Shown here: positions 3,365 to 59,125 of the stretch, one piece after another
Numbering within the stretch: the first letter of the stretch is position 1
Layout of the letters: each line of letters begins with the position of its first letter
IMG/VR virus record: IMGVR_UViG_3300035698_022475
Location: 1-64,000 of that record
From: a virus
DNA length: 64,000 nt
Direction: 5' to 3' (one strand)
Program-made: the position numbers and the translations under genes
The notes under the pieces: generated by a model
Told to the model about the DNA's origin: nothing
Seen by the model: the letters and a program-made list of their open reading frames with translations, nothing else
Database searches by the model: none

Positions 3365-4333
3365 ATGCCCGAGACACTCAAATCAGGAGGGACTACTATC
3401 CCTCCGGCACCCGCTCCGACCTCGTTGAAGTTGTCGGATCTCGTGTTCGCAGATGAATGGAACCGTGAGAAAATCGGTGATATCAGAGGACTCACTCAGT
3501 CCATCAAAAGTCAGGGACAACAGGTGCCCATCATCGTACGTTCCCACCCGACAAAGACGGGAAAGTACATAATCAAGGATGGCCGAAGACGCTACGCGGC
3601 CCTCAAGGATGCCGGCATCAAGGAAGCCTTGGTGTATGTGAGGGAGAGCAAGGACGACAACGAAGCGTACCTCGAGTCCCTCCTCATCAACCTTCAGCGC
3701 GAAGACAATACCGATTACGAGAAAGCTATCGTATTCGGAAAATTGGTAGACGCCGGCATGAAGAGCAAAGAGATCGCGCAGAAACATGGGGTGGCTGAGG
3801 GGTACGTGAGCCATCGTCTCGCCATCCTGAAGCTCCCGGACAAGTGGCAGAACGAGGTGAAGAAGGGCAAGCTCGGCGTAACCCACGCCCGCATGTTCGC
3901 TCCGCTGTTCACCAGCGACACCGCGGCCGATGCCAACATAGCGACGAAGCTTATCGAGCGCATCATGGAGGACAAACTGGATTCTACCAGTGCTCAGGAG
4001 CGCATCGACAAGTACATCTCCAAGAAGACGGAGAAGGCCAAAGCCAAGGGCGAAGAGCCCGAGGGCAAGGTCAAACAGGGTGCCAAGAAGACCAGCTCCA
4101 AGAAGAAGAAGGGCGCGGGAGAAGGGAAGGACGAAGAGCCTTCAGAGCCGGAGACGGCGTACACTCCCAAGGTCCAAAAGGAGATGAAGATGATCACCCT
4201 GAAGATCAACGTCGAGTGGCTCCAGTACTACGAGGAGCGCCTTGCCCGGACCAATAGCGCCACCAACAAGTTGCGCATCAAGGGCATCATCGAGGGTTTG
4301 GAGATCTCCAGCGGTCTCCGCGTCGAGAAATAG
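3365..4333 (+). CDS. ParB-like DNA-binding protein
   Basis: This 322-aa protein has the ParB/sulfiredoxin-like N-domain with the CTP-binding box (KDGRRRYAAL, residues ~73-82) and downstream LLINLQRED, typical of ParB families. It is followed by a helix-turn-helix (MKSKEIAQKHGVAEGYVSHR, near residues 135-155). A lysine- and acid-rich hinge (residues ~215-270) separates a C-terminal conserved segment (KMITLKINVEWLQYYEERL). An AACTGGAGGA-type ribosome site precedes the ATG. No ParA gene is visible in the window, so a transcriptional or DNA-processing role is as likely as segregation. The operon ends in a strong hairpin just after the stop. Confidence 0.85.
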   Translation: MPETLKSGGTTIPPAPAPTSLKLSDLVFADEWNREKIGDIRGLTQSIKSQGQQVPIIVRSHPTKTGKYIIKDGRRRYAALKDAGIKEALVYVRESKDDNEAYLESLLINLQREDNTDYEKAIVFGKLVDAGMKSKEIAQKHGVAEGYVSHRLAILKLPDKWQNEVKKGKLGVTHARMFAPLFTSDTAADANIATKLIERIMEDKLDSTSAQERIDKYISKKTEKAKAKGEEPEGKVKQGAKKTSSKKKKGAGEGKDEEPSEPETAYTPKVQKEMKMITLKINVEWLQYYEERLARTNSATNKLRIKGIIEGLEISSGLRVEK

Positions 4334-4343
4334 TTCACTTCTA

Positions 4344-4380
4344 AACTGTCTGGGGGCATTCGCCCCCCGGCAGTTTTCTT
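4344..4380 (+). terminator. Rho-independent terminator after the ParB-like gene
   Basis: Arms 4344-4357 and 4362-4375 pair over 14 positions with one G-U pair and one mismatch, around an ATTC loop, followed by a T-rich tail. It lies between the convergent ends of the ParB-like gene and the sigma factor gene. The T-tail favours the + strand, but the hairpin could act on both transcripts. Confidence 0.85.
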
Positions 4381-5402
4381 TACCAACAGATATCTTGAGC
4401 GTCACGAATGGAACGTCGGCGTAGTTCTACGCGCAGATCTTTCAATACTTTTTCTTTTATCTGTCGGACACGTTCAGGAGTGATTCTTGCAACTGATGCG
4501 AGTTGGTAGAGACTTTTGGGTTGGGAGCTTTTACGTTCTGCTTGGGGCACATTGTAATATTGGATGACAATGTACTTATCCCGCTCGCTCACAGACATTC
4601 CACGAATAGCATCTCGCAGTATACGAGCGGAGTCGTCATCCACTACATCAAATTCGACATTTTGAGCATCTGCCAATGGCAGATTATCTAGTGTAGTCAT
4701 TGTATGGTAAGTGCCAGAGGAATCAGGCAATACGAATTCATGTTCATCTGCTGTGCATGGGGGAAGATGAGAGGAGTGGTCAGGGGAATGCGTTCGAATT
4801 TCGCAATGACTACAGATATACGCTCCCTCCTTCATCTCCTTTCGTATTGTTTTCTGCTTATGGGATGGGATGTGTATTAATCCCAGGTTATTTATCTCGT
4901 CGAGCATCTCTTTTCGGATCCACCATGCGGCATACGTAAGGAAGCGTGTTTGCTTGCACAGCTTGTATTTGTCGACGGCAAGGATGAGCCCCACATTTCC
5001 GGCAGAAACTAATCGTTGGATGTGTGCCGGCTTTCGAGAAAACCCCTTTGCCGTCTTCATTACGAAACGTAAATTGGAAACAATCAACTGATCGCGTGCC
5101 GCGTGGTCTCGGTCAGCTCCACAGAGCGGACATCGTTTAGGAGTTACTAAGATGTCAAATTTGTCTCCACAGGAGGTACAAGTGTGCTGTCGCCCCTTCG
5201 TATCGCTTTCCAGCGGCGCTTGTTCACTGCAGTGAGGGCAGTTGGCGGCTGGTACTTTTTGTGGAATTTCTTCATTGCAATGAGAACACGTACGATAGCG
5301 TCTTAGGAGGTGTTGTTCTTTTTCAGGTGTTAGTATTTCATGCTTACCTACGTCATCGTAATAGGCTGTAAACACTCTGTTAAAGAAGAAATCCTCTGAC
5401 AT
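4380..5402 (-). CDS. Sigma-70 family RNA polymerase sigma factor with inserted zinc ribbons
   Basis: This 340-aa protein should direct host RNA polymerase to phage promoters. After a short region-1.2-like helix (LTPEKEQHLLRRYR) it carries four CxxC pairs, at residues 39-42, 55-58, 75-78 and 91-94, i.e. two zinc ribbons in tandem. Region 2 follows with typical wording: RDQLIVSNLRFVMKTAKGF, LVSAGNVGLILAVDKY, TRFLTYAAWWIRKEM. Another possible metal site (ICSHCEIRTHS...PPC) lies near residue 206. Region 4 with its helix-turn-helix ends the protein (LYQLASVARITPERVRQIKE). A GGGAGGA ribosome site precedes the ATG. It is alone on the - strand between two + operons. The sigma assignment is strong; the role of the zinc ribbons is unknown. 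Confidence 0.9.
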   Translation of the reverse strand: MSEDFFFNRVFTAYYDDVGKHEILTPEKEQHLLRRYRTCSHCNEEIPQKVPAANCPHCSEQAPLESDTKGRQHTCTSCGDKFDILVTPKRCPLCGADRDHAARDQLIVSNLRFVMKTAKGFSRKPAHIQRLVSAGNVGLILAVDKYKLCKQTRFLTYAAWWIRKEMLDEINNLGLIHIPSHKQKTIRKEMKEGAYICSHCEIRTHSPDHSSHLPPCTADEHEFVLPDSSGTYHTMTTLDNLPLADAQNVEFDVVDDDSARILRDAIRGMSVSERDKYIVIQYYNVPQAERKSSQPKSLYQLASVARITPERVRQIKEKVLKDLRVELRRRSIRDAQDICW

Positions 5403-10400: not shown

Positions 10401-10820
10401 CTTCTCTCGACCGGAAACGAGGCAGCATACATTAACGATTGCGCTTACGGAGTCTACTATGACGAGAAGAAAAAGATTCTTGTCTTCCTCATGGATACTA
10501 TCGATGAGTTAGTAGGCCGTCACTTCCGGCAGTATGCCGCAGGCCAATTGAAGGCCATACTGCGGCGGCACCCTCAAGCCCTTAAAGACAAAGAGATCAA
10601 GGACTCGAGGGTACTACAGCAAGCCGTTCCCTACTTTGGAGCACATACTGAACCGCGACACGTAGTCGCGATTGACGTGTCTAAGGACGTCAGTGCCGCA
10701 CGCCTACGGGCAATCGAAGAAAATAAACGAACCCAGGCCGCTGGACCCACTGCCGTAAAGGAAGAAGAGAATGCCGAAACCCAAGACGCCAGCAACTTCG
10801 ACTGGTCGGATAGAACCTGA
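7419..10820 (+). CDS. Primase-helicase: CHC2 zinc finger, TOPRIM and P-loop ATPase domains
   Basis: This ~1133-aa protein should lay RNA primers and probably unwind DNA at the fork. In order: a CHC2-type zinc finger (LCPNPDHADTTPSC ... YCKCFGC, residues ~50-80), a TOPRIM domain (YLTEGEMDVLTL then YLIGDSPQKGPAGGDKV), a middle region of unknown fold, and a P-loop (LFVSGETSSGKSKFVSSF) with a following acidic Walker B-like strand (RRLMALDEFESDEG). The start is uncertain: ATG at 7413 or 7419 overlaps the nuclease gene; MAKKPPKRKG at 7419 is preferred. It also overlaps the polymerase gene by 50 bases. The helicase part does not look like classic DnaB and may belong to a DUF927-like or SF3-like group. 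Confidence 0.85.
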   Translation: MAKKPPKRKGLTRDQLWKIWAQIRPESWLELVRSFKPHLGFTFSSQGVLKGLCPNPDHADTTPSCFVHVNKGYCKCFGCEMYITDPVEFVSMIMGVAPADAVQYLQENFKFPFLSKKALKELEAQQINQEAKQAIYNASHDHMIDAVTSPAKYPAAQQAVDWLTQIRQVDPGILPALPIGILPPLADLQTSLSNQYLQALKEWKKNGQQGNEPVNLTEPVTDYLAKTVTSSTYNGSVVFPLHATPTEIGRLKFRVPSNTKKFSVPDDEYEDLLGLFGLGWSGYNDFTDPTNKITHAYLTEGEMDVLTLMARMAKSGNIDIPLYSAGGSGGAAHIEPIMKVSGIDTAYLIGDSPQKGPAGGDKVVEGWINKMPEIHSRIFTGWNALQPAGDLDEAVLNLGETKVLDILHKYATHNFTPVWKWAFERSSLEVEAIDEDDKRKRHECAARHGKYLCNKKDCDIYVDAIARAFELNERIIKREIISTEDSELGFILRCTDALREIMTVVGTRIRGSYIYLVCYNRENGRYHQFRLDDERSIAQELATIVGSVYEFVNQYVGFPSFFTLPDDTEGHEMPTLDRLLRFYVKDAIAALAPGSPDYETSPHLRQGYHRTKLKGGVFVEYVVSGPDIFAIDREEDKLQYRKLIGPSDRGLIFDVGLEDNHRDDSWYPGGLTTQSLERGRAVSAGELFKTTEEYYDIGFQFKNHETMKTFAAALPFIFSVMDAFPKPLMLFVSGETSSGKSKFVSSFTGQDTSMRDLQLFYASQYLGSYTEAGIASAANHDRRLMALDEFESDEGTRKSAAVINIFELYRPMINGEVVRARGTKSGSHYVAHLRHPVMFSAIITAQKAQDLNRVIHIEMQHVDNRASPERVLLSRFGKTAINNVARDIAVCMYPHVPELIENYDHIAEDFYRRINATLPQKVEERWASHLFPVLAFLKLIGRNWEAFFREFVIQNTRETTLTADMPISESLFRDITQHRIFEIERDQPKRSIISLLSTGNEAAYINDCAYGVYYDEKKKILVFLMDTIDELVGRHFRQYAAGQLKAILRRHPQALKDKEIKDSRVLQQAVPYFGAHTEPRHVVAIDVSKDVSAARLRAIEENKRTQAAGPTAVKEEENAETQDASNFDWSDRT

Positions 10821-13794
10821 GAAGTTTGAGTGTCAACTCTGCGGTACAAGAGCCTGGAAAGGCCCTAAATGCAAAAACTGTAAACTCCGCGAAACGGCCC
10901 ATTACACAGAAGGAGTCGGCGGCGTCCCTGGCGAAGTCGACTTTTTCTGTGTGGCCAATTCCCCGTTTCTCGCCGGACCCTCCTCCAGTCTAATAAATCA
11001 CCGTGGGTGGACCCAAGACATCGAGAAGGTTGTACGTTCAGCCTTCATCCGCACCGGGAAATTGAATCCCTCTTTCCGCGCCCTCACAGGACGCTTCACC
11101 TACGCAATCCGGTGCGAGAAGAAGAAACCCGTACTGCGCGATATTAACAGTTGTCGCCCTCTCTTTATTGAGGAGCTACTCGAATACGCGCGTCCCAATG
11201 TTCCCATCATGATCTTCGCCATGGGCGATGCCGTATTGAAATCTCTAGGACTTTCAATACGCAAGTACTCAAGTGTTCAAGAACACTTCGTCGAAGCGAA
11301 GATTGGGGATCGGGACGTGTACGTTTACGTATCCATGTCAAAGCCGCAGCTCGCAGCCAAGACGGGATACTTCGACCTATTCAAGAACCACATCGACCTC
11401 TTCCTCTCCAACGTGGCGGAAACCTCCGCAGGACGCGAAATTGAAATCGCTCCGACACTGGAGAAACTCTCCAAGGACTATGTCTTTCCCAAGACCATCA
11501 AGGAAGTAGAAAAGATCGTTGACCATATCATCAACTACACGGAGGGGGATACGGACCCTCGAAACTGGGTAATCTCAATCGATACGGAAACAAACACCAA
11601 GTTTCCTCACCGTCCCAAGCTAAAACTATTGAGTGTTGTAGTTGGATGGGGCACCGGCCTCGCCACCTCTATTCCTGTTGAACACCCGAGTACCTCCTGG
11701 ACATTCGAAGAGGTTGCTCCTCATATTCAACGACTCCTCTCGTGCCCTAAACCCAAGATACTGCACAACCTCAAGTTCGATCTCAAGGTGCTACGTAAAA
11801 AAGGGTGGGACATACGGCGCATTGCGTGGGACACCATGCTTGGAGAACATCTCCTGGTAGAGGATAAGAAGGGCTTCTATGGCCTGAAAGACCTCACCAA
11901 TACTATGCTCCCAGCGTATTCAGGTTATGAAGACACGCTCCAAGCCGCCTTGACCTTAGGAGAAGGTGCGTCGCAGCTCGCGGACTCCAAACAAAAGGAC
12001 GCTGTGAAGGAGAAGAAGAAACCCAAACTCAAAGGGGCCGCCAAAAAATTGGACGAGGATTCCAAGACTGAGGGCTTCCTGCACGTGCCTTTGACTGACC
12101 TGAACATATACGGTGCTATAGACGGGGATGTTACTCGTCAATTAGTATCTCTTCAGAGAGCCCGAGCACTGCAGGAAAACTACGCTCTCACACAGCGGAG
12201 GGCGCAGCTTGCTCGTAATATCCATTTCAGGGAGCTGGCACAGACCGGCTGCGACTTGCAGGACCCCATCACGTCGACAATGTTCCACCGGATTATCCCA
12301 ACCGCTAAGGTGTTGGCGGACATGGAGCTTTACGGCGTAAACGTAGACCAAGACTATGTGGACGAGCTGACCGTCAAAATGGGGCTGTCGTTACAGCACT
12401 CGAGAACCGAGATGCTGCCGATGATTCCTCAGGGGATAGACTTCAATCCCTCGAGCCCCCATGACCTTCGAAAGCTCCTCTTCGGCACAGGATTCAAACA
12501 CCCAGATACCGGAGAGACAATCTGTTACGCGGGTGTCGTGGAACCTCCACGAACAGAGACTGGCCTCCCGTCCACGAATGCTCAGTTCCTGCGCTCCCTG
12601 GCAACCCAACATGACTGTCCGTTGTCAAATGCCGTCCTGCGCTACCGCGCAACACACAAAGCGCTCCATACATTCGTGGCCAACATCCAAGCCCTGAGTG
12701 CTGAGGATGGGAGGATGCATACCAATTTTCACCAGCACGGAACAGCGACGTACCGTTTGTCGTCTTCGGACGAGAACATGCAGAACGTCCCGTACCGTAT
12801 CGGCGAACACAACATCAAGAAAATCTTCATCCCTTCCGAGCCTAATAACCAAGTCATCTGTAATGCCGACGCGAAGGCTGCAGAGGTGCGCGTGTACGCG
12901 GCCTACAGTCACGACCCCAACCTGATCAAGGCACTCAACGACGGCATGGACCCACACTCCTTCTTTGCTGGGATGGTGTTCAACCCGGATGTTGTACTGG
13001 AGGGTATTGATAGGTCGATGAGGAAGGTGGTGATGGACACCCTCGGAATCGACGACGAGCACTCCTGGAGCTATGACGACTTCAACAGTCGCAACAGTTT
13101 CAAGGACACCGACTCCTGGTACTCCAAGCAGTTAGACAAACTTCGGAAGAACATCAAACGCGTGGTCTTTGGTATCCTCTACGGAGCGAGTAAGTTCAAG
13201 ATTTCGAGCATCGTTGGAATCTCTCATGAGCAGGCACAGGCCATCATCGACTTGCTGGAGAAGATGTTCCCATCTATTCCACACTACGTGAGCACCACCA
13301 AAGACCAGGTTCGGCATATCGGTGTGGTCGAGACCTTCTTGGGACGGCGTCGCCGTTTCGACATGCGAGGACTCACAGGCTACATGCGTAGCAAGGCAGA
13401 ACGCCAGGCGGTGAACTTCAAGATTCAATCCACATCATCAGACCTCGTACTGGAGGTACTCTGTGAAGTAGCTGAGCCTATTCGGCACGATTTCGGAGGA
13501 CACCTCCTGATCACAGTACACGACTCCGTTGTTGCGGAAATACCTTCCAAGTATATCTCGCAACTCCCCGAATTCTTCGAGGAGTACGGCGTCAAGCGCG
13601 TAGCTAAGCGACACCCCTGGCTTCCAGTTCCATTCCAGTGGGACGTAGAGGTTGGCCCCTCGTACGGAGAGGTCATCGATATTCAGGAGTACATGACCCA
13701 GAACGACATCGCACGTTATGCTCGTGAGGATCCTGACGACTACCTAGAGCAGGACATCAAGGCGGACTTCGAGAAAGAAGTTGCCATAAGTTAA
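10771..13794 (+). CDS. Family A DNA polymerase with N-terminal UDG-like domain and 3'-5' exonuclease
   Basis: The replicative polymerase, 1007 aa. Residues 21-37 hold two CxxC pairs and ~35-210 resemble family 4 uracil-DNA glycosylase, keeping four cluster-type cysteines (C34, C37, C115, C128) but lacking the usual GEAPG and HPSYL catalytic motifs. This arrangement is known in SPO1-type phage polymerases. A DnaQ-like exonuclease follows (IDTET with D271 and E273; HNLKFDLK; YGAIDGD). The polymerase domain has motif A as NADAKAAEVRVYAAYS (D700), motif B as KRVVFGILYGAS (from K796) and motif C as VHDS (D918) instead of the common VHDE. A Lys-rich insertion lies around residues 405-430. An AAAGGAAGAAGAG site precedes the ATG. 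Confidence 0.93.
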   Translation: MPKPKTPATSTGRIEPEKFECQLCGTRAWKGPKCKNCKLRETAHYTEGVGGVPGEVDFFCVANSPFLAGPSSSLINHRGWTQDIEKVVRSAFIRTGKLNPSFRALTGRFTYAIRCEKKKPVLRDINSCRPLFIEELLEYARPNVPIMIFAMGDAVLKSLGLSIRKYSSVQEHFVEAKIGDRDVYVYVSMSKPQLAAKTGYFDLFKNHIDLFLSNVAETSAGREIEIAPTLEKLSKDYVFPKTIKEVEKIVDHIINYTEGDTDPRNWVISIDTETNTKFPHRPKLKLLSVVVGWGTGLATSIPVEHPSTSWTFEEVAPHIQRLLSCPKPKILHNLKFDLKVLRKKGWDIRRIAWDTMLGEHLLVEDKKGFYGLKDLTNTMLPAYSGYEDTLQAALTLGEGASQLADSKQKDAVKEKKKPKLKGAAKKLDEDSKTEGFLHVPLTDLNIYGAIDGDVTRQLVSLQRARALQENYALTQRRAQLARNIHFRELAQTGCDLQDPITSTMFHRIIPTAKVLADMELYGVNVDQDYVDELTVKMGLSLQHSRTEMLPMIPQGIDFNPSSPHDLRKLLFGTGFKHPDTGETICYAGVVEPPRTETGLPSTNAQFLRSLATQHDCPLSNAVLRYRATHKALHTFVANIQALSAEDGRMHTNFHQHGTATYRLSSSDENMQNVPYRIGEHNIKKIFIPSEPNNQVICNADAKAAEVRVYAAYSHDPNLIKALNDGMDPHSFFAGMVFNPDVVLEGIDRSMRKVVMDTLGIDDEHSWSYDDFNSRNSFKDTDSWYSKQLDKLRKNIKRVVFGILYGASKFKISSIVGISHEQAQAIIDLLEKMFPSIPHYVSTTKDQVRHIGVVETFLGRRRRFDMRGLTGYMRSKAERQAVNFKIQSTSSDLVLEVLCEVAEPIRHDFGGHLLITVHDSVVAEIPSKYISQLPEFFEEYGVKRVAKRHPWLPVPFQWDVEVGPSYGEVIDIQEYMTQNDIARYAREDPDDYLEQDIKADFEKEVAIS

Positions 13795-13803
13795 TGGTAT
13801 AAG
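13795..13803 (+). promoter_or_regulatory. Extended -10 box TGGTATAAG
   Basis: This 9-mer begins directly after the polymerase stop codon and fits an extended -10 element (TGnTATAA). The identical 9-mer occurs at 58528 upstream of the uracil-DNA glycosylase gene. No -35 match is visible. It would start a + strand transcript through the gene-free stretch that follows. Confidence 0.45.
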
Positions 13804-14149
13804 TTTTGGAATCTCTACCGGGAATTTCGCCTACTGTCGAAAGTCGAAATATCAAAGCGGACAAATGCCGGAGCTTCTCTTATTGAGACGCAGAGGATGT
13901 TACATCCTTGTTATTGCTACGTGGTCGCCCGGCCGTTCGGAACCGCAGCTTCCGAACGACATCGCACTTAGCGGCATGGTTCGCGTCACACTGCCCAGTC
14001 GGGCCTTGCGGCCTTTCCTTAACGCAGTGTTACCCGGACACTCAGCGGCATTTCGGAAGTTAGCGCCGGACGGGAGTCGCACGTACCGGTTTTGGCCGAC
14101 GCCTTCACCGAGTACGCCGACAGCCGTTCCGGCCCTAAACTTAGCGGCA
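13804..14149 (+). ncRNA. Gene-free stretch with hairpins, candidate structured RNA
   Basis: No convincing coding region lies between the convergent ends of the polymerase and terminase genes. The stretch has a perfect 9-bp hairpin (13934-13942 with 13950-13958), a 7-bp stem (13988-13994 with 14024-14030) enclosing a GGCC/GGCC hairpin (14002-14005 with 14010-14013), and three copies of AGCGGCAT at 13970, 14044 and 14143. A promoter-like TGGTATAAG precedes it. This is consistent with a structured phage RNA read on the + strand, but I cannot match it to a known class such as GOLLD or ROOL, and no clear terminator is seen at the far end. The strand is inferred only from the promoter-like box. Confidence 0.35.
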
Positions 14150-15769
14150 TTAATGCTGGTAGAACTTTGTATCCCCGATAGCGATTTTGTGAGCGACCCA
14201 CCCGAACAGGCCTGCGTGAAGACAATCATCAGGCTTGTGCGGGGAGTGTCGCCACACTTTTTTTCCGTGCTGGGTAACTTCCTCGTACTCGTTGAGTATG
14301 TCCTCTATTGCCATCTTCATCTGACTCTCCGGAGCGAACTCAACAGCTTTGTTTTTGAGCAGCATGAAGTAGTTATCGATCAGCGTAGTGCGGTCGCCCA
14401 GATACCGGTCCTCGCCGTTCCACTTGAGAGCACGAGCATAGCTTCCGTATTGTACTTGTTGTACTCGGTGGGGCTCCAGGTAACGGCGCAAAAGTCCGTT
14501 AGCAACAGCGCCTTCTCCGGCATCTCCAACAGCCATCTGAACGTTGTAAGCCAGGCATGTCTTGGCAATTTCCTCTACGGCATGGACTGGATTCTTTCCG
14601 GGATAAATCTTGTAGAAGAGAGTGACGAGTTTCTGATCATTGGGGCGGAAACCCCAGATCCAGAGAACAGTACGAGACAGGCCAGAGGCTCCTCCTCCAG
14701 ACCAGTCAATGCCTGCTACGGCACTCGTCACATTAAGGAAGTGCCCCGATACTGGCTTCTCTTTGATATTAACTCCGACGCAAAGTTCCTGGAGTTCTTC
14801 GAGAGAAATCATCCGAGTACCGATGGCGTCAGAGACTCCGAGCACTTCGTTCCTGAACAGGGAAGGAGGACTCTCTTCGTACTTTCGAAGGATTCGATAC
14901 CACCGCTTCAGCGCGCGTTCGTAGTCGGCACCGCCTCGCTGCTTCATGGCCTCAGGAACATTCTTGGGCATAATGAGCTGGGAAATATGAAAGCCCTTGA
15001 GCTTCTGTGACGGGTCAGGGTATCGCGTAGGGTCCGGAGGAGAGAGGTCTATCCAGCGACCACTAAACGGATTGAGGTACTTCCCACACTTCACACAGAT
15101 GGGACCAAGTTTGCCAATGGAGCGTTCGTCGTCGATGTACTGATGGCAGCCACACCCTTCACACTTCATTACCCATTCAGTTTGCGTGGACATATCCCAC
15201 AGATACTGAATGGTATTTTCCATCGTTTTTGGGGTACCAGCATATGTCTCGTACCCGTAATTGGATTCTGACATACACTCGTTGCCGACGATAATGACAG
15301 GATCGTACAGGATGTCCTGAACCTCGTCGTAGAGGTTCCGGTCAGCCGAGATCCCACGCAAGCGGTCGGGGTCATCACAAGCATACGTAAAGTACATCTC
15401 CGCACCGTTGCGGAACTGTTTGTGCCCCATTCGGTAGGAAAGGTCAGCGTGCAAAAAACCGTCCTTGATAACCGGGGAGTACGTCATCGTCTTAGAGATA
15501 CGAGCGTTCGAGAAGCGCACCGTCTGCTCCTTAGAAGGACTCACAAACATGGTTCGAAAGTGAGGTAGAACCGCACATTCGATAATACTGAAGTGTGCTA
15601 GTGTAGTACTCTTGGCTACCTGGCGAGCCGTCTTCATCAGGATTCTACGATAACGGCCGTCATAAAAGGCCCTATGCATAGGCCAATCCCGCAAGTCAAA
15701 CGGCTTGCCATCAAGTAGGAGCCATCTCTCAGCAATAACAGAGAGAGGTTTTTTAGGTATTTTAGTCAC
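14150..15769 (-). CDS. terL: Terminase large subunit (packaging ATPase-nuclease)
   Basis: The protein (~539 aa) drives genome packaging into proheads. The N-terminal ATPase has the Walker A-like TARQVAKSTTLA and Walker B-like RNLYDEVQDIL, preceded by the usual W...L.DGKPFDLRDWP entry. A zinc ribbon (CEGCGCHQY ... CVKCGKY) is inserted near the domain junction. The C-terminal RNase H-like nuclease starts with AGIDWSGGGAS and includes VGDAGEGAVAN. The start is uncertain: the longer ATG at 15805 would overlap the divergent MoxR gene and lacks a ribosome site, so GTG at 15769, just before TKIPKKPLS, is preferred. No small terminase was recognised nearby. Confidence 0.92.
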   Translation of the reverse strand: MTKIPKKPLSVIAERWLLLDGKPFDLRDWPMHRAFYDGRYRRILMKTARQVAKSTTLAHFSIIECAVLPHFRTMFVSPSKEQTVRFSNARISKTMTYSPVIKDGFLHADLSYRMGHKQFRNGAEMYFTYACDDPDRLRGISADRNLYDEVQDILYDPVIIVGNECMSESNYGYETYAGTPKTMENTIQYLWDMSTQTEWVMKCEGCGCHQYIDDERSIGKLGPICVKCGKYLNPFSGRWIDLSPPDPTRYPDPSQKLKGFHISQLIMPKNVPEAMKQRGGADYERALKRWYRILRKYEESPPSLFRNEVLGVSDAIGTRMISLEELQELCVGVNIKEKPVSGHFLNVTSAVAGIDWSGGGASGLSRTVLWIWGFRPNDQKLVTLFYKIYPGKNPVHAVEEIAKTCLAYNVQMAVGDAGEGAVANGLLRRYLEPHRVQQVQYGSYARALKWNGEDRYLGDRTTLIDNYFMLLKNKAVEFAPESQMKMAIEDILNEYEEVTQHGKKVWRHSPHKPDDCLHAGLFGWVAHKIAIGDTKFYQH

Positions 15770-18800: not shown

Positions 18801-18817
18801 AGGCGTGTAACACGCCT
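18801..18817. repeat. Inverted repeat AGGCGTG-TAA-CACGCCT
   Basis: Two perfect 7-base arms around a 3-base spacer lie in the 65-base gap between the divergent 333-aa and VWA genes. With no T-run it is unlikely to be a terminator; an operator for a dimeric regulator of the VWA-RT operon or its divergent neighbour is more likely. Confidence 0.45.
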
Positions 18818-20526: not shown

Positions 20527-21180
20527 ATGAGAAAGAGACCAATGACTTTTCGGCGGGGGAATATTTACCACGTAAAGGTGGCACAGCGGAGTATCAAAGC
20601 AGTAGGAGGGGCCCGCATCGACTACTTCCCCTTCGACCATGCTTACCTGGTGCATCAGGACGACGAAGACCGTGTGCGCCGGTTGTTCCGGTACTACTTG
20701 GTAATGGACTGCTCCGACATCATTCAGCAGATGCTCAAGCGTTTGTGGTTCGAAAACGAGCAGGCAATCACAATAGACCGAGATGACGACAAGTTCCACG
20801 GCTCTTGCCCCAATGCCAAGGATCGAATCAAGCTGGAGAATCCGAACGAATGGCTCCTCGTGGTACCGACCCACGCCACGCCTAAAACTAGGAAGGGCCG
20901 GAAGAATCCCGACGCCTCCGGTATCGGATACGTAGCCTCTCGCGTCTTGAGCGATCAGCACAATACCCACGTCAATATGCCTGCCATAGCGGTACAGACG
21001 CCAGACAGCCGCATTCCGCTGCTGTGCTCCATCTGTACAAAGCTTCCGGATTTCTACGAGGGCAAATGTGCTCCGGCAACAGGGACGTGTCGTTCCAAAG
21101 CCAGGACACGCGTACCTCTGGACATGGACCGTAAACGATCCTTCGACGCCTCGGTTGAAGAACAAGGAGACGCCTCATGA
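20527..21180 (+). CDS. Hypothetical protein in the RT operon, 217 aa
   Basis: A basic protein beginning MRKRPMTFRRGNIYHVKVAQ, with a C-terminal cysteine group (LLCSICTKLPDFYEGKC, then GTC) that may bind zinc. It starts just after the VWA stop with an AGGAG site and ends in an ATGA overlap with the reverse transcriptase. Translation is therefore probably coupled to the RT. No family is recognised. Its basic charge and zinc site would suit nucleic-acid binding, which is an inference. Confidence 0.72.
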   Translation: MRKRPMTFRRGNIYHVKVAQRSIKAVGGARIDYFPFDHAYLVHQDDEDRVRRLFRYYLVMDCSDIIQQMLKRLWFENEQAITIDRDDDKFHGSCPNAKDRIKLENPNEWLLVVPTHATPKTRKGRKNPDASGIGYVASRVLSDQHNTHVNMPAIAVQTPDSRIPLLCSICTKLPDFYEGKCAPATGTCRSKARTRVPLDMDRKRSFDASVEEQGDAS

Positions 21181-22373
21181 GTGTTGGATTCCTGAAAACC
21201 TCCCTGGTGAGGATCGAACTCCCCGACGTCTCCGCAGATATCCCCTACGTTGTGGACGACTGTAGCTTGGCATTCAATCTCGGATACCGTACGAAAACGC
21301 TGTGGTGGGTCATTCACCACAAGGAGTCCCATTACAAGGTTCACCGGATCCCTAAAAAGAAAACAGGTTTCCGTACCATCCACGCCCCGTCTACCTTCAT
21401 GAAGGGTTTCCAGAAGCGCCTACACACCAAGTTCTTGGTGCCCCTGCAGAACCACCTGGGTTCGCACGTCACGGCATATAGAAAGGGTCTCTCTACACGA
21501 CATGCGGTATTGCAACATATCCCCCCTTGTGAAATCTGCGACAATGCTGAAAAGGGTGAAACACCCAAGAAGCACGAGTGTCCGCGGAAAGGCACAGTCA
21601 TTCAGATGGACCTCCAGGACTTCTTCGGGAGCACTCGGCGATCCTGGATCCGGAACTACTTCAAGGAACAGGGTTATAACCACTACACTGCGGGGCTGCT
21701 GGCCAGCTTGCTGACCGTGGACGACATTCCGAACCAGAAGCCACTCAAGCAGCGGCGGAAGGATGAACCGGAAACGTTCACAGGAGTCCCGCAGGGTGCC
21801 CCCACATCAGGAGCAATCTGTAACCTCATCGCAGACTGGCGGATCGACCACCAGATCATGGGCTACCTCGACGAACTGAACGAACAGATGAAGCTCGAAG
21901 GGGACTGGCAATGGCAATACACGCGATACTCCGATGATCTGTGTCTCACGTGCGGACGTGACGTTTCCGCGACTGACAAGCGGGAAATCTGCAATCGCCT
22001 AACTCGCATTATCCAGAAGGCGGGCTACCGTCTCAATCCCAAGAAAACACGAGTAGGCCACGCTTACTACCGCAAGACGTTGCTAGGGATGGTCTTCAAC
22101 GAGAAGCCCAATATTCCACGAGAAAAATACTTGAAGTACCGCGCCATGGTTCACAACGCACTCACGCAGGGCGTAGAGAGCCAGTACAAGAGAGCGGGGT
22201 TCAAGGCACCCGAGGCGTACCTGGACCATCTCCGTGGCAATGTGAATTACATCGCACAGATCATTGACCAGTCCAACAAGGACCGTGCCGAACGCCTACA
22301 AATAGAGCTGGAATTGGCCGTTGAGAACTTCGAGGAAACCAAGAAGGAACAGCCGGGGGTAGCCAATGCCTGA
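21177..22373 (+). CDS. Retron-type reverse transcriptase
   Basis: This 398-aa protein has the ordered RT motifs: PKKKTGFRTIHAP (finger), VIQMDLQDFF with catalytic D145, GVPQGAPTSG (205-207 PQG), and YSDD at 251-254 in place of the commoner YADD. The end of the palm reads RLNPKKTRVG and then TLLGMVFNEKPNIPREKY, where retron RTs usually have VTG. A cysteine insertion (CEICDNAEKGETPKKHEC) near residues 118-138 may bind zinc. Diversity-generating RTs carry a different motif 4 (GLPxGNLTSQ-like), so that class is unlikely. It is translationally coupled to its neighbours on both sides, leaving no space upstream for an msr/msd RNA. Activity looks intact; function is unknown. Confidence 0.9.
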   Translation: MSVGFLKTSLVRIELPDVSADIPYVVDDCSLAFNLGYRTKTLWWVIHHKESHYKVHRIPKKKTGFRTIHAPSTFMKGFQKRLHTKFLVPLQNHLGSHVTAYRKGLSTRHAVLQHIPPCEICDNAEKGETPKKHECPRKGTVIQMDLQDFFGSTRRSWIRNYFKEQGYNHYTAGLLASLLTVDDIPNQKPLKQRRKDEPETFTGVPQGAPTSGAICNLIADWRIDHQIMGYLDELNEQMKLEGDWQWQYTRYSDDLCLTCGRDVSATDKREICNRLTRIIQKAGYRLNPKKTRVGHAYYRKTLLGMVFNEKPNIPREKYLKYRAMVHNALTQGVESQYKRAGFKAPEAYLDHLRGNVNYIAQIIDQSNKDRAERLQIELELAVENFEETKKEQPGVANA

Positions 22374-23751
22374 TTACACAAACCTCAAACACTTGTTCAC
22401 TTACGCCGCGGCAGAGCGCGGGTACTATGGAAAAGCACCTGCCTTGATCTTCGCGTGCTTAGACTCACAAGATACTCAATTCAGTAACCGAGAAACCCCC
22501 ATGACTCTTACCCAACATCCGCTGGTACAGAAAGTCATGGGGGACGTTTACTTCGTAAAGTACTACTCCGGGGACGAAAACGAACTCTGGCACCACAACC
22601 GCGGGATACAGCGCTGGATCTTCACATCCGAAATGGCGGATGTTCTAAGATCCATGGACGCCGGGGACCATGACTCCGTTCTTCTTAAAATGGAAGACAA
22701 GCCCCTGGGCGCCGTAACTACCAAAGAAATCCTGGACGCCTGCTACCTCCCTCACAAATACGCCAAGACTTGTTTTGAATGTGCTACGGCACCCCTGAGT
22801 GAAAAGCACCTCAAGTCCAAGCACAACTGCTTCTTAAAGAATGCAGTACGGCGGTACAACACCGGTCACATACTCTCGACGGTTCTCGCCTCCTCTTATG
22901 ACTTGGAGGACATCTGCGAAGAGCACAATCTCGTAAACCGAAAGACGAAAATAGACAAGTTCGTCTACATCAGCCCTGCGCTGACACAGGCAGGGGTTCC
23001 TCATAATATACGTCGCGTGGGGGAACACAACTTCACAGTTATCCAAGATTCCTCCGATGCGCTCGCAGAGGGGCAACATGAGAGAGCCCGGTTTGTACAG
23101 TTCCAAAAAGAAGCATGTCCTGCGTGCTCCGTACAGACTCCCTGTGAGTGTTACAGGTCAGAAGCATCTCGTCGGTGGTGTGAGGGGCCTTACCCCAAGG
23201 AAAAGGAAATCGTAGAGTCGATTCTCGACAGGACGATTATCCCCTTCTCAAACTCGCAGCTACGATACCTCCTCGCCAATAGTGGAATTCTCAGTAAGCG
23301 TTTCGACAGACGTATAGTCGCCGGCACGTTCGGCATGTGCCACAACACCCTCGTCTTCAGGATACGACGCAAAACCTCTCCGCAGGGCTGCTCCGATATT
23401 GCTGAATTCGATAATATCCGAGACGCACGGAAGTTCCTTCAGAGGTACAACAAGGGGAATTCCCCGCAGCATATGCCCTCCATGACTCGGGAACTAAAGG
23501 CTGTATTGTGTGAGCTGGCCTCGCGCGACGGGAGCCCTCGGGAGCACCGCGCCTGGAGGACGGTGTCGTATCCGGTGCTGTACATCGAACCCTATAGCTC
23601 CGGCTACCGTGTTAATTATAGCTATCACGGAAGAGGAATAACCGGTTTTGGAATGTCAGTAAGCACACTGAGAGAAATCTTCGAGAACTTCGAGAGCTTC
23701 GCTTACGGACCAAGCCGGCACCACAACGCATCCCGCCGTAGAGGCTACTAG
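22366..23751 (+). CDS. Hypothetical cysteine-rich protein downstream of the RT, 461 aa
   Basis: The ATG overlaps the end of the RT gene by 8 bases. The protein has two cysteine/histidine groups that could bind zinc: CFECATAPLSEKHLKSKHNC near residue 135 and CPACSVQTPCECY near residue 250. The N-terminal part (LFTYAAAERGYYGKAPALIF) and the C-terminal part (AWRTVSYPVLYIEPYSSGYR) show no known enzyme motif. It is the last gene of the VWA-RT operon, converging on the late strand. It may be an effector or nucleic-acid-binding partner of the RT, by position only. Confidence 0.75.
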   Translation: MPDYTNLKHLFTYAAAERGYYGKAPALIFACLDSQDTQFSNRETPMTLTQHPLVQKVMGDVYFVKYYSGDENELWHHNRGIQRWIFTSEMADVLRSMDAGDHDSVLLKMEDKPLGAVTTKEILDACYLPHKYAKTCFECATAPLSEKHLKSKHNCFLKNAVRRYNTGHILSTVLASSYDLEDICEEHNLVNRKTKIDKFVYISPALTQAGVPHNIRRVGEHNFTVIQDSSDALAEGQHERARFVQFQKEACPACSVQTPCECYRSEASRRWCEGPYPKEKEIVESILDRTIIPFSNSQLRYLLANSGILSKRFDRRIVAGTFGMCHNTLVFRIRRKTSPQGCSDIAEFDNIRDARKFLQRYNKGNSPQHMPSMTRELKAVLCELASRDGSPREHRAWRTVSYPVLYIEPYSSGYRVNYSYHGRGITGFGMSVSTLREIFENFESFAYGPSRHHNASRRRGY

Positions 23752-26322: not shown

Positions 26323-26883
26323 ATGTCATTAGAAGCGTCAAGGAAGTACGTCGGAATCGACCCCTCAATACGGAGCACTGGGTGTGCGGTTCTAGGGGAA
26401 AACAAAGTCCTCCATACTCGAATCCTAAAAGCCCCCAAAGAGCGGGGGGCTCCCTGTCTCGCCAGTATTCGAGACCAGTTCAAAGCGGTAGTCCCCGGTA
26501 CCGCTACATATGCTTGTATTGAAGGCCCCTCTCTCAATTCCATCAATCGACCCGACGATCTGGGCCAGGTCCGTGGAATATTTCTTCTAACCCTGTTCGA
26601 CGCAGGTATCCCCGTTACCGTAATACCTCCTCAGTCCTTGAAAAAATTCGCTTCCAAGGGTGGCGCCAGCAAGACACGAATGATCGAAACTGCGGAAAAA
26701 GAATTCGGACTCGAGATCACCTCAGACGACTTGGCAGACGCACTTTGGTTAGCCAAACTCGCCCACGCCCTTTACGACGACAGTATTCGCCTAACTCGCA
26801 AACAATTGGAAGTAATCTACGGTATAAGAAACCCGAAGAGCAAACGAACAATTTCCGACCGCGGAAAAACCATAAACATCTAA
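26323..26883 (+). CDS. RuvC-like Holliday junction resolvase
   Basis: This 186-aa protein has the RNase H-fold layout of RuvC-type resolvases, which cut four-way junctions before packaging. Likely catalytic acids are D13 in VGIDPSIRSTG, E67 in CIEGPS, and D136/D139 in DDLADALWLA, with the lysine-containing ASKTRMIE between them. It starts a + strand island inside the late-strand train and is followed after 11 bases by the ribonucleotide reductase gene. The C-terminal ~40 residues are basic and may contact DNA. Confidence 0.85.
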   Translation: MSLEASRKYVGIDPSIRSTGCAVLGENKVLHTRILKAPKERGAPCLASIRDQFKAVVPGTATYACIEGPSLNSINRPDDLGQVRGIFLLTLFDAGIPVTVIPPQSLKKFASKGGASKTRMIETAEKEFGLEITSDDLADALWLAKLAHALYDDSIRLTRKQLEVIYGIRNPKSKRTISDRGKTINI

Positions 26884-26894
26884 AGAGGAGATCT

Positions 26895-29549
26895 ATGCTC
26901 AAAATCACACGTCACCATACTACAGAAAACGCAAATCCCTTCGACGGTGTCGATTGGATACGCGCCGATGTCAAAATGGTGGACCTAGAAGGAACCACGA
27001 CTTACGAACTTCGTAACGGAGAATTCCCGGCAAGCTGGTCTGAAATATCCCGCAACATCGTAGCTTCACGCTATTTCCGAGAGTCCCGAATCAAGGCCGA
27101 CAAAGAAGACAGCGTCCGAACTATGATTTCTCGAGTAGTCACCGAAATCGTCAAAGCAGGCACCGAACAAAAATACTTCACGGATAAAGATGCGGACATC
27201 TTCCGCGACGAACTCACTCACGTTCTTTTGAACCAGATGGCTTCCTTCAACAGCCCCGTTTGGTTCAACATGGGTGTCGAGGGGCTAGAAGAAAAGCCTC
27301 AGTGCTCTGCGTGCTTCATCAACTCAGCAGACGACAGCATGGAAAGCATTCTGGAACTCGGCACCAAAGAAGGCCTGATCTTCAAAGGGGGCTCCGGAAG
27401 CGGCACAAACCTCTCTCCGCTTCGCGCCTCCACAGAGTCCATTCGAGGAGGAGGCACCGCTTCTGGTCCCGTGTCCTTCATGTCCGCCTACGACGCAATC
27501 GCCAATGTCATCCTCAGCGGAGGACGTACGCGGCGAGCCGCACGCATGGTCCTTTTGGATATCGACCACCCTGACATCGAGAAGTTCATCTGGTGCAAAG
27601 CCGAAGAAGAGGACATCGTAGAAATACTCGCTGAAGCTGACATCCCTACGGACTACACGATTCCGGGAAATGCCTACTCACGAGTAAAGCATCAGAGCGG
27701 CAACAACAGTGTGCGGATTCCCGATGAATTCATGGAGCACGTCAAACACCACATCCAGTACGGAGAGGACGCCGACTGGAAACTTACTAATCGAAATGGT
27801 GGCGGCGTCGCACGGACGGTGTCTGTCAAGAAACTCTTCCGTCAACTCGCTGAGGCAGCTCACAAGTGTGGTGATCCCGGTGTTCAATTCCATGACACCA
27901 TCAACAAGTACAATACGTGCGCCAACGACGGAGACATCGTCGCCTCAAACCCGTGCTCAGAGTTCGTCTGGCATAACGATTCAGCGTGCAACCTGGCAAG
28001 CATCAACCTGCGGAAATTCGACAAAGGTAATCACGCCTTCGACACTAAGTCCTTCCGACATGTCATAAACCTGCTCGTCATCGCTCAGGACATCATAGTA
28101 GAAATGGGGAGCTACCCCACAAAAGAGATCGAGGACAACACACACAAGTACCGCCCGCTGGGATTAGGTTTCGCTAACCTGGGCGGTCTCCTGATGTCCT
28201 GGGGCTACCCTTACGACAGTCAAATAGGCCGAGAAATCGCCGCGTCCATTGCGGCACTCATGACGGGACAAGCGTACCTGACCAGCGCCGAGCTTGCACA
28301 GGACTTAGGAGCTTTTGACAGATTCGGGCCTAATCGAGGTCCTATGGAAGATGTCCTGGATCGCCACTACGCCCACACCCGTAAGCTTCCCAAAGACGAA
28401 GCAGGAATCCAATCCCAGGCTATTCGTGCTTGGCAAGAAGCCATGGGGCTGGGCTTTGGCCGCAAAAAGAAAGTAGAAGGCGAAGGGGCCGGGTTCCGGA
28501 ATTCTCAAGTAACTCTACTGGCTCCCACAGGAACTATCGCATTTATGATGGGCTGTGACACTACGGGCATCGAACCCGACTCAAGCCTGTCCAAATTGAA
28601 AACCATTGTAGGAGGTGGAAACATCTCTTATGAGAGCAACGCAGTCGAATCGGGGCTTCGCTACTTGGGCTACGGAGAAGAACAACAACAGGACCTTCTT
28701 GAATACGTAGCCGATTACGGCCACCTCGAGGGATCCCCTTTGAAGGCCGCACATCTACCCGTTTTCGATTGTGCTTTCCGACCCGATGGCGGAGAACGAA
28801 GCCTCTCGGTGGACGCGCACCTGGACATGGTAGCTGCAGTACAGCCATTCTTGTCGGGGGCCGTCTCCAAGACGTTTAACATGGACAACTCCGCTACTCC
28901 AAAGGACGTAGCTCGAACGCTCCTGAAGGCCTGGGAGAAACGGATCAAATGCGTCACTGTCTATCGCCGGGGTTCTAAAATGTCTGAGGTGATTCGCACC
29001 AAGGAAATCAAAGCCAAGAAGATTGTGCGAAACACCCCACGGCGCATGAAACTTCCGGATGACCTGGATGGCATCCCGCGCCATAAGTTCCGAGTGGGTA
29101 ATCACAAAGGATACCTGCACGTAGGTGTAGACCCCGAGGACCCCACGCGCCCGATAGAGGTGTTCTTCCGAATGTCGTCCATCGGGTCTACCGTGTCAGG
29201 CCTTTTGGACAGCTATGCCACGCTGCTCTCCATCGCACTGCAGTACAACATCCCTCTCGAAGAACTCGTCGAACACATGATCGGACCTAAGTTCCCGCCA
29301 CAGGGAATAACGTCCAACCCGAGAATACGGTCAGTGGATTCCGTTCTCGCGTACCTCTATCACTTCCTGCGCCTCAAATTCATCGATAACGAAGAGGTAA
29401 AGGAAACATCAAATTCAATCGTCCCCAGCGCTGACGACGGACATTCAATTGACGGAGAACCGTGTCCCCGCTGTGGTGGTCTACTGGAAAAAACTGGAAC
29501 TTGTGCCGCGTGCCGCTATTGTGGCTATAATGACGGTACGTGCTCATAG
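26895..29549 (+). CDS. nrdJ: Adenosylcobalamin-dependent (class II) ribonucleoside reductase
   Basis: The 884-aa enzyme converts ribonucleotides to deoxyribonucleotides for phage DNA synthesis. The ATG at 26895 has AGAGGAG just upstream; the frame runs further upstream but only as an overlap with the RuvC gene. Family wording is clear: SFNSPVWFNMGVEG, QCSACFINSADDSM, GSGSGTNLSPLR, ASNPCSEFVW...CNLASINL (active-site region), and APTGTIAFMMGCDTTGIEPD. The C-terminus carries CPRCGG...CAACRYCGYNDGTC, the zinc-ribbon tail usual in B12-dependent NrdJ. No small subunit or activase gene is nearby, as expected for class II. It needs cobalamin from the host. Confidence 0.94.
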   Translation: MLKITRHHTTENANPFDGVDWIRADVKMVDLEGTTTYELRNGEFPASWSEISRNIVASRYFRESRIKADKEDSVRTMISRVVTEIVKAGTEQKYFTDKDADIFRDELTHVLLNQMASFNSPVWFNMGVEGLEEKPQCSACFINSADDSMESILELGTKEGLIFKGGSGSGTNLSPLRASTESIRGGGTASGPVSFMSAYDAIANVILSGGRTRRAARMVLLDIDHPDIEKFIWCKAEEEDIVEILAEADIPTDYTIPGNAYSRVKHQSGNNSVRIPDEFMEHVKHHIQYGEDADWKLTNRNGGGVARTVSVKKLFRQLAEAAHKCGDPGVQFHDTINKYNTCANDGDIVASNPCSEFVWHNDSACNLASINLRKFDKGNHAFDTKSFRHVINLLVIAQDIIVEMGSYPTKEIEDNTHKYRPLGLGFANLGGLLMSWGYPYDSQIGREIAASIAALMTGQAYLTSAELAQDLGAFDRFGPNRGPMEDVLDRHYAHTRKLPKDEAGIQSQAIRAWQEAMGLGFGRKKKVEGEGAGFRNSQVTLLAPTGTIAFMMGCDTTGIEPDSSLSKLKTIVGGGNISYESNAVESGLRYLGYGEEQQQDLLEYVADYGHLEGSPLKAAHLPVFDCAFRPDGGERSLSVDAHLDMVAAVQPFLSGAVSKTFNMDNSATPKDVARTLLKAWEKRIKCVTVYRRGSKMSEVIRTKEIKAKKIVRNTPRRMKLPDDLDGIPRHKFRVGNHKGYLHVGVDPEDPTRPIEVFFRMSSIGSTVSGLLDSYATLLSIALQYNIPLEELVEHMIGPKFPPQGITSNPRIRSVDSVLAYLYHFLRLKFIDNEEVKETSNSIVPSADDGHSIDGEPCPRCGGLLEKTGTCAACRYCGYNDGTCS

Positions 29550-40702: not shown

Positions 40703-41401
40703 CTAAATCCGTCCGTGCTGTATGTTCTTCAACTGATCAACAAATTTACGTTTACGATAACTTAACTGTCCTTGTGACAGCTTATATTTACGACGTAAAC
40801 GGGCGTTAGATAATGCAATACCCCTGCCATAACCCGTAATGTCCTCGAAGAGGAGTTTATCACCCGGAGAGAGCCCATGATAGTAAAAGTCCACAACACT
40901 ATCAGGCTTATCATCGTCCGACATTAACGCACCCTCAGACTCGACTAACTCCCTACGCCCAAAAGCATTCTGGAAATCCCCTACCTTCTTGGGAGTCCAA
41001 TGCAACTCATCTGCTATTTCTTCGTGGGTCGGATCGCGCCCAAGGTCGTCCACGAGCTTGTTCTGGGCTACTTGGAACGTATTGTACAGAAGCTGCTGGT
41101 TCTCAGGGAGTCGGGCTACATTTTGATACGGATACACCGAACGAGACAGCTTCCGAACCCGGCTAGCTACGTGCGTACCGACCGCCGCCCCGCGGTTAGG
41201 GTCGTAGTTTTCTAGCGCATCTACTGCCAAGAGGTTGGCCTTAGATTCAAGAGCAGCTCGGGGAACTGTAGAATCCCACTTGGAAATCTCCCGATTAAGA
41301 AGAGGCTTGAGTCCGTCAAGAAGTTGCCGAAGGACCGCCGGACTGCGCGTTTTTCGCCACTCCTCCCAAAGGTCAAGATCCTGTTGCTGCCGTGGTGTCA
41401 T
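40703..41401 (-). CDS. Sigma factor-like protein inside the tail operon, 232 aa
   Basis: The protein resembles the later regions of sigma-70 factors. Residues ~20-90 look like a weakened region 2 (LLNREISKWDSTV, LLAVDALENYDPNRGAAVGT). Residues ~95-150 match region 3 well: VARLPENQQLLYNTFQVAQN then DLGRDPTHEEIADELHWTPK. The C-terminus (LRRKYKLSQGQLSYRKRKFV) could be a region 4-like DNA-binding helix pair. It overlaps the hub gene by ATGA and is two bases from the next gene, so it is made with the tail proteins. It may be a late regulator, or a packaged or repurposed protein. Confidence 0.72.
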   Translation of the reverse strand: MTPRQQQDLDLWEEWRKTRSPAVLRQLLDGLKPLLNREISKWDSTVPRAALESKANLLAVDALENYDPNRGAAVGTHVASRVRKLSRSVYPYQNVARLPENQQLLYNTFQVAQNKLVDDLGRDPTHEEIADELHWTPKKVGDFQNAFGRRELVESEGALMSDDDKPDSVVDFYYHGLSPGDKLLFEDITGYGRGIALSNARLRRKYKLSQGQLSYRKRKFVDQLKNIQHGRI

Positions 41402-58567: not shown

Positions 58568-59125
58568 ATGGGATTCAACGAACAAGTTCTAAGTTGTCGT
58601 AAGTGTTCCGAATTAGCGGACACTCGTCAAAACGTCGTTCTCGGAGAAGGGGTAATCCCCTGCGATATTCTTTTCCTCGGAGAAGCCCCTGGGAGTAGGG
58701 AAGATAGTACTGGGAAACCTTATCAAGGAGCTTCCGGCCAAATACTCCGTGCTCTTATGCACACCACTGGAATCTTTGCTCTCCGCATTCACATCCTCAA
58801 CGTACTAAAATGCCGCCCTCCCAACAATCGAAATCCTCTTGAAGAGGAACTCAAAAACTGCCGTCCATTCCTGGAGCATCAGCTCAAGGTCGTTCGTCCT
58901 AAAGTTATTGTCGCCATGGGACGGTACGCCCAAGCTTTCGTGCTTGAACAGGAAGCAGCCAAAATTCAAGTCCTCAAGAACGCTGGGAAGACCAATACAT
59001 ATCGCGGCATCCCCGTCGTTCTTACTTTTCACCCTTCCTATCTTTCACGCAGCGCTAACTCACAAGTAGAAGCTGCATTCAAGATCCACCTCCAACTGGC
59101 TAAACGCCTGAGTCAAGGAGATTAG
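58568..59125 (+). CDS. Family 4 uracil-DNA glycosylase (Fe-S)
   Basis: This 185-aa enzyme removes uracil from DNA. Four cysteines at residues 10, 13, 82 and 98 have the spacing of the family 4 4Fe-4S cluster. The catalytic-site motif GEAPGSREDSTGKPYQG (38-54) and the late FHPSYLSRS are present. KCRPPNNRNP around residue 81 is the usual third block. It is followed directly by the DinG-like helicase with TAGATG spacing. The replicative polymerase carries a related but apparently inactive UDG-like domain, so this gene probably supplies the active function. Confidence 0.92.
   Translation: MGFNEQVLSCRKCSELADTRQNVVLGEGVIPCDILFLGEAPGSREDSTGKPYQGASGQILRALMHTTGIFALRIHILNVLKCRPPNNRNPLEEELKNCRPFLEHQLKVVRPKVIVAMGRYAQAFVLEQEAAKIQVLKNAGKTNTYRGIPVVLTFHPSYLSRSANSQVEAAFKIHLQLAKRLSQGD

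Follow-up and report, generated by a model that had tools for sequence, protein, structure and literature searches.

A candidate retron-like template RNA between the convergent polymerase and terminase genes of a large environmental phage

The window analysed here, which is the whole 64,000-nt stretch of DNA (positions 1 to 64,000) from a 113-kb virus record, includes a gap between two convergent genes: one encoding a family A DNA polymerase (pol) and the other the large subunit of the terminase (terL). A preliminary description, made from the letters alone, had called this gap (13795-14149; 355 nt) gene-free and structured, and this is borne out: the pol stop codon ends at 13794 and the minus-strand terL gene ends at 14150. 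About 7 kb downstream lies a gene for a reverse transcriptase (RT). The features that concern the present analysis are as follows.

10771-13794, + strand: pol, upstream neighbour of the gap
13795-13803, + strand: TGGTATAAG, immediately downstream of the pol stop; resembles a promoter element of the extended -10 type
13863-13870, + strand: P1 5' strand (a1-like), AAATGCCG; three copies farther downstream pair with it exactly, over 6, 8 and 7 bp
13871, + strand: candidate priming (branching) guanosine directly after P1, positioned as in retrons (PMC6868368)
13873-13891, + strand: P2 hairpin, GCTTCTC/GAGACGC with one mismatch; GCTTCTC-like hairpins occur in relatives L029, L041, L002 and L042
13894-13908, + strand: P3 hairpin, AGGATG-TTA-CATCCT, with a triloop of the G[NNA]C type; its stem varies among relatives with pairing kept, and it is a candidate for recognition by the RT
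13934-13958, + strand: first msd-like hairpin, 9 bp with a 7-nt loop
13970-13977, + strand: AG plus P1' copy 1 (a2-like), 6 bp with P1
13979-14039, + strand: second msd-like hairpin, GTCACACTGC...GCAGTGTTACC, an inverted repeat
14044-14053, + strand: AG plus P1' copy 2, 8 bp with P1
14065-14133, + strand: third msd-like hairpin, GCCGGACGG/CCGTTCCGGC, read from the sequence and its minimum-energy fold
14143-14151, + strand: AG plus P1' copy 3, 7 bp with P1, overlapping the terL stop codon
14150-15805, - strand: terL, convergent neighbour
20527-21180, + strand: ORF217, overlapping the RT start, with four invariant Cys; candidate RT partner
21177-22373, + strand: REVERSE TRANSCRIPTASE, retron-clade RT, 398 aa, YSDD catalytic motif, Pfam RVT_1
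22366-23751, + strand: ORF461, downstream of the RT and kept beside it in many relatives; candidate accessory

The individual elements picked out in the preliminary description are present: TGGTATAAG directly after the pol stop; a perfect 9-bp hairpin (13934-13942/13950-13958); a stem enclosing another hairpin, which takes the form of a 16-nt, 81% inverted repeat (13979-13994/14024-14039) with an inner hairpin; and copies of AGCGGCAT at 13970, 14044 and 14143, embedded in 12-nt repeats (ACTYAGCGGCAT). AGCGGCAT occurs only five times in the 64-kb window, both strands included, and its three copies in the gap are alternative 3' partners (CGGCA) of a single 5' strand (TGCCG, 13866-13870). This layout of one 5' strand and several 3' copies recurs in L051, L041 and L002 with other sequences, the copies always matching their own 5' strand, and several relatives likewise have an overlap between the terL stop and the last P1'. 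The 3' half of the second msd-like hairpin together with its AG-P1' (14022-14052) matches L029 at 90% identity over 31 nt; the hairpin units of L029 stand in a different order. Between the promoter-like motif and P1 (13804-13862) there is a possible degenerate module (CTACCGGGA ... AAAGCGGA) with a P1 of only 3 bp. A lone hairpin with the same triloop, AGGCGTG-TAA-CACGCCT, lies at 18801-18817, just upstream of a VWA-domain gene; the module descriptor reports an 8-bp P1 for it, which may be chance.

Open frames do span the gap (e.g., 13865-15010 on the plus strand, antisense to terL). A peptide conserved in homologues, the outcome that the preliminary description had set against an RNA, was looked for in these frames and none was found among relatives, the best match (E 0.004) falling over a stretch conserved as DNA; nor did a tRNA/tmRNA scan of the stretch find any. 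A terminator-like T run inside terL (in the 14250s) is not claimed as a terminator because it is coding and is conserved as coding. The two flanking genes have peculiarities of their own in relatives: terL of the closest relative (L028, 7989-9641) has one in-frame stop in the matched stretch, due either to sequencing error or to recoding, and the pol genes of L009, L015, L047 and L013/L018 have in-frame insertions at one site (near residue 664-670) that are possible mini-inteins, with sizes of about 136-144 aa in L047 and L009 and of at least 300 nt in the others; no Rfam intron was found in L009. A close cultured relative of the phage was searched for and not found, and a host search by terL in genome contigs gave one near relative and three distant matches, and no reliable host; the near relative sits in an Archaeoglobales bin, and the same contig also exists as a viral record. 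The same phage encodes a ParB-like protein (3365-4333), a class II ribonucleotide reductase (26745-29549) and a uracil-DNA glycosylase (58568-59125).

The polymerase, the terminase and a profile of the latter were used to search IMG/VR and yielded 83 distinct loci; the convergent pol/terL pair is present in about 76, with gaps ranging in length from 0 to over 3 kb. In about 20 related environmental phages, this gap or another part of the genome contains tandem modules that share a single design, the module being repeated one to five times per locus and other loci also being occupied. Each module opens with the P1 5' strand and a G, followed by P2 and P3; next comes a long stretch of variable sequence, which measures 59-175 nt in most modules and usually contains an extended hairpin, and AG and the P1 3' strand complete the unit. 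P3 is a perfect stem of 6-8 bp (in one case 5) in which a G-C pair closes a three-base loop ending in A.

Fifty-one modules were curated, using a search that required the AG before the P1 3' strand and left the G after the P1 5' strand free. That G is nevertheless present in 49 of the 51, and GA in 41. P1 is 6-17 bp long, and its pairs 4-6 show all four Watson-Crick pairs, as do pairs 2-5 of P3; the P3 loop, which is part of the module definition, reads TTA, TAA, CTA, ATA, CAA or AAA. In the 18 nearest gaps there are 29 modules with exact P1 versus 0.0 in 100 dinucleotide-preserving shuffles, and 32 P3 hairpins versus 0.2. Stems in the msd region are found in 38 of the 51 modules. P2 generally counts for little as evidence, since hairpins of at least 4 bp occur in 42 of the 51 modules versus 32 on average in shuffles. 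By itself, the gap in the window is only mildly more stable than its shuffled versions (z about -2 to -3); relatives supply the strong evidence, namely the module counts above and a mean z of about -6 over the same gap in 15 genomes. Thus the comparison with homologous phages proposed in the preliminary description turned up covarying stems; the Rfam search proposed with it matched none of 4227 families (GOLLD, ROOL, OLE, introns and CRISPR repeats included) at the gathering cut-off, and matches ranked by E-value, for the window and 11 relatives, were at chance level only.

A more distant type of array occupies the pol/terL gaps of L122, L101, L109, L105 and L097. Its tandem units, up to six of them, read a1-(T/C)AGC-P2-P3-...-AACRAAGT-a2 and so follow the orthodox order of a1, (T/C)AGC, hairpins, msd and a2. 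A strict AGC descriptor of this type gave 13 matches in 85 kb of gaps versus 22 in about 2.3 Mb elsewhere (both strands).

Motifs around the arrays, and the strand on which they lie, are indirect evidence for a plus-strand RNA. TGGTATAA occurs in 15 of 76 homologous gaps versus 0.4 in shuffles, in several relatives 5-7 nt separate the related YGGTAWAA from the first P1, and the promoter-like motif also opens a relocated array (in G006). The last base of TGGTATAAG is G rather than T, and therefore a standard sigma-70 promoter is not certain. TGGTATAAG also occurs about 32 nt before the start of the uracil-DNA glycosylase gene, and the phage has two sigma-factor-like genes (4380-5402 and 40703-41401, both on the minus strand), one of which could recognise YGGTATAAG. 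Modules within the pol/terL gap lie on the polymerase strand, and arrays elsewhere share the strand of the co-directional genes around them and are closed, on that strand, by intrinsic terminators (a hairpin plus a T run). Because of the covarying stems, the lack of a conserved peptide and the TGGTATAA-like motif before the first module, a structured plus-strand RNA is well supported: to judge from sequence comparison, 13795-14149 very probably encodes such an RNA gene. The preliminary description had proposed a stable phage RNA. Covariation and the motif uphold a structured RNA; the alternative 3' partners, the recurring module and the conserved retron-type RT suggest that it is probably a template and primer for reverse transcription.

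By sequence and by modelled fold, the RT is a member of the retron clade with an intact catalytic motif. Its best PADLOC match is RT_XIII (9e-55) and all of its matches among PDB sequences are retrons. Similarly, the 17 best PDB matches found by Foldseek for its AF2 model (pLDDT 92) are retron RTs, which rank ahead of DRT2, group II intron and diversity-generating retroelement (DGR) enzymes. Among 25 relatives YxDD is invariant, as are L303 and G304 of the LLG that stands where classic retrons have VTG, at the opening of region Y. The gene is syntenic through the phage group, of which it is a core gene. ORF217 is found only in records that have the RT, and gave no PDB fold match and no family match; ORF461 likewise has no family match (in Pfam and PADLOC, among other searches), and no toxin-like effector was recognised.

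The RT is present in 28 of the 42 records searched whole. Near-whole-record scans for modules were performed on seven genomes with the RT and three without it, using the reversed sequence as a control. Five of the seven (G000, G001, G002, G004 and G032) have 2-6 strict modules versus 0-1 in the control; a sixth (G006) has no strict match but a visible array; and in the seventh (G020) no array was found with either the strict AGC descriptor or a looser one. The three genomes lacking the RT (G008, G009 and G016) have 1-4 modules versus 3-4 in the control, that is, chance level. The association does not rest on synteny, because G001, G002 and G004 have the RT and no pol/terL gap, their arrays lying elsewhere. 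The window's own genome has a second array of four modules just beyond the window (G000:64219-64862; L181:4219-4862), about 43 kb from the RT and flanked by a lysis-like gene on one side and a small gene/dNMP kinase on the other. This site also holds an array in G004, G032, G029 and G001; a dNMP-kinase scan of viral contigs found nothing. Co-occurrence of RT and modules could stem from shared ancestry only, as the genomes with the RT make up one side of the tree.

In retrons, complementary ends (a1 and a2) enclose short msr hairpins and an msd hairpin, the priming G, usually part of a TAGC, is found at the inner end of a1 or immediately beyond it, and a domain of the RT binds one msr hairpin, which has 8 bp and a loop of three bases (PMC6868368). 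The phage modules, known from sequence, resemble retrons such as Ec86/Eco1 and Ec67/Eco2 in having an a1/a2 outer stem with a G at the end of a1, and a short-loop, msr-type hairpin (P3, far above chance) followed by a long msd-type hairpin; and HMM, sequence and fold all place the RT in the retron clade. The window P1, at 6-8 bp, is at the short end of the retron range for a1/a2 of about 8-30 nt. Unlike retrons, however, the putative phage templates lie far from the RT (at distances of 7 kb and about 43 kb) rather than in the same cassette, and are tandem and dispersed, sometimes with several a2 per a1; the candidate priming G of the window type sits within YYGGA rather than (T)AGC, with AG on the a2 side and AGC only in the distant type; no effector is recognised; and the RT, a core gene of a large phage group, has LLG instead of VTG. 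VTG is common rather than strict in retrons, since two validated retrons carry substitutions in it (PMC6868368). The term 'retron-like' is preferred here to 'retron' because the cassette linkage and VTG are missing.

Other systems share some of these properties. As in Retron-Nex1 (Ne160) of Nannocystis (PMC6868368), there are several msr-msd-type copies without an RT within a kilobase; unlike the apparent duplicates of Retron-Nex1 in a bacterial chromosome, the phage modules differ in sequence and keep their structure. Staphylococcus jumbo phages have a conserved RT, of unknown role, without recognised DGR features (PMC10638138), which is likewise the situation here; that comparison concerns the RT alone, and a similarity search found an RT from a cultured Staphylococcus phage that shares only about 24% identity with the one described here.

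Pairing biases provide a further hint. RNA should tolerate G-U on its own strand, and an rRNA control in an energy comparison does so. Because GT/AC mismatch counts over all stems were uninformative for rRNA, such counts were restricted to long stems and P1 and were supplemented by the energy comparison. Interruptions of P1 that are followed by more pairing comprise 7 G-T and 1 A-C; msd-region stems have 4 G-T and 11 A-C (Fisher p 0.009 for the difference, with small counts). A G-T bias in P1 and an A-C bias in the msd region (i.e., T-G in the cDNA) are what would be expected if P1 acted as RNA and msd as cDNA. The energy comparison of msd strands was not significant (p 0.23).

Three other interpretations were weighed. 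First, the arrays might be modular structured RNAs unrelated to reverse transcription, such as a protein sponge, an RNA cage or a regulatory RNA. Covariation, the promoter-like motif and the terminators indicate an RNA gene on this reading as well, the association with the RT could be phylogenetic, and GOLLD and ROOL are likewise large structured RNA genes in phage genomes. The detailed match to retron anatomy, the conserved G after P1 and the difference in pairing bias between P1 and the msd region make an RNA of this kind rather unlikely; and, unlike GOLLD and ROOL, which are among the Rfam families without a match, the phage arrays consist of small repeated modules in genomes with an RT. 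Second, the gap could be a DNA-level element--cruciform palindromes, recombination or packaging signals, or bidirectional terminators--as its position between converging genes, its strand-symmetric pairing overall (z+ -6.0, z- -6.4) and its almost purely Watson-Crick long stems (18 G-T and 17 A-C among 1138 pairs) might suggest. This is improbable, given that arrays also lie between co-directional genes, on the genes' strand, and end in one-sided terminators, that P1 has a G-T bias, that strand-specific letters mark the P3 loop (GNNAC) and the junctions of P1 (GA..AG) and that some relatives have gaps of more than 1 kb. Third, mobile hairpin elements that insert and relocate with target-site duplications (AGCGGCAT, AGCAGTACC) would fit units that are bounded by short direct repeats and permuted between the window and L029, and arrays that change place between genomes, but are very improbable, as the repeats always complement the conserved 5' strand and change with it, which target duplication would not require, and as hairpin sequences are not shared. 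The junction letters and layout do not seem to fit attC/integron, IS200/605 ends, self-cleaving ribozymes or phi29 pRNA.

The favoured reading, which sequence evidence makes reasonably probable, is thus that the stretch is a retron-like msr-msd template RNA used in trans by the phage's own retron-clade RT. Upon transcription of the array, the P1 5' strand (a1) would pair with a 3' copy (a2), thereby closing the module; the RT, perhaps working with ORF217, would bind the P3 triloop hairpin; and the 2'-OH of G13871, just after a1, would prime cDNA synthesis. The msd hairpin immediately upstream of the chosen a2 would serve as template, and the product would be a short folded single-stranded DNA. 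Because a single a1-P2-P3 head is followed by three a2 copies, up to three cDNAs could be made (with templates of about 61, 135 and 234 nt), and the array at 64.2-64.9 kb would contribute four more complete modules. In other words, phages of this group may, while infecting a cell, copy several RNAs into short, folded DNA molecules. What these are for is a guess, the likeliest roles being to counter host defence, with ssDNAs that act as decoys for the host's sensors, or to keep out competing phages.

More generally, the evidence leans somewhat toward a large-phage lineage that has a retron in its core genome, in which one RT would act in trans on dispersed, fast-evolving tandem templates, some having one head and several msd/a2 units, and would supply the phage with a range of structured ssDNAs to be used in counter-defence or in excluding rivals. 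Retrons are familiar chiefly as bacterial defences against phages, in which a single template adjoins a single RT. If the above is true, the usual arrangement would be reversed, with a phage group keeping an RT as a core gene along with many diverse templates, and such phages would be natural multiplexed producers of ssDNA for genome-editing work. It would also make phage use of reverse transcription outside of diversity-generating retroelements a testable question, for which the module provides a search handle for finding further cases.
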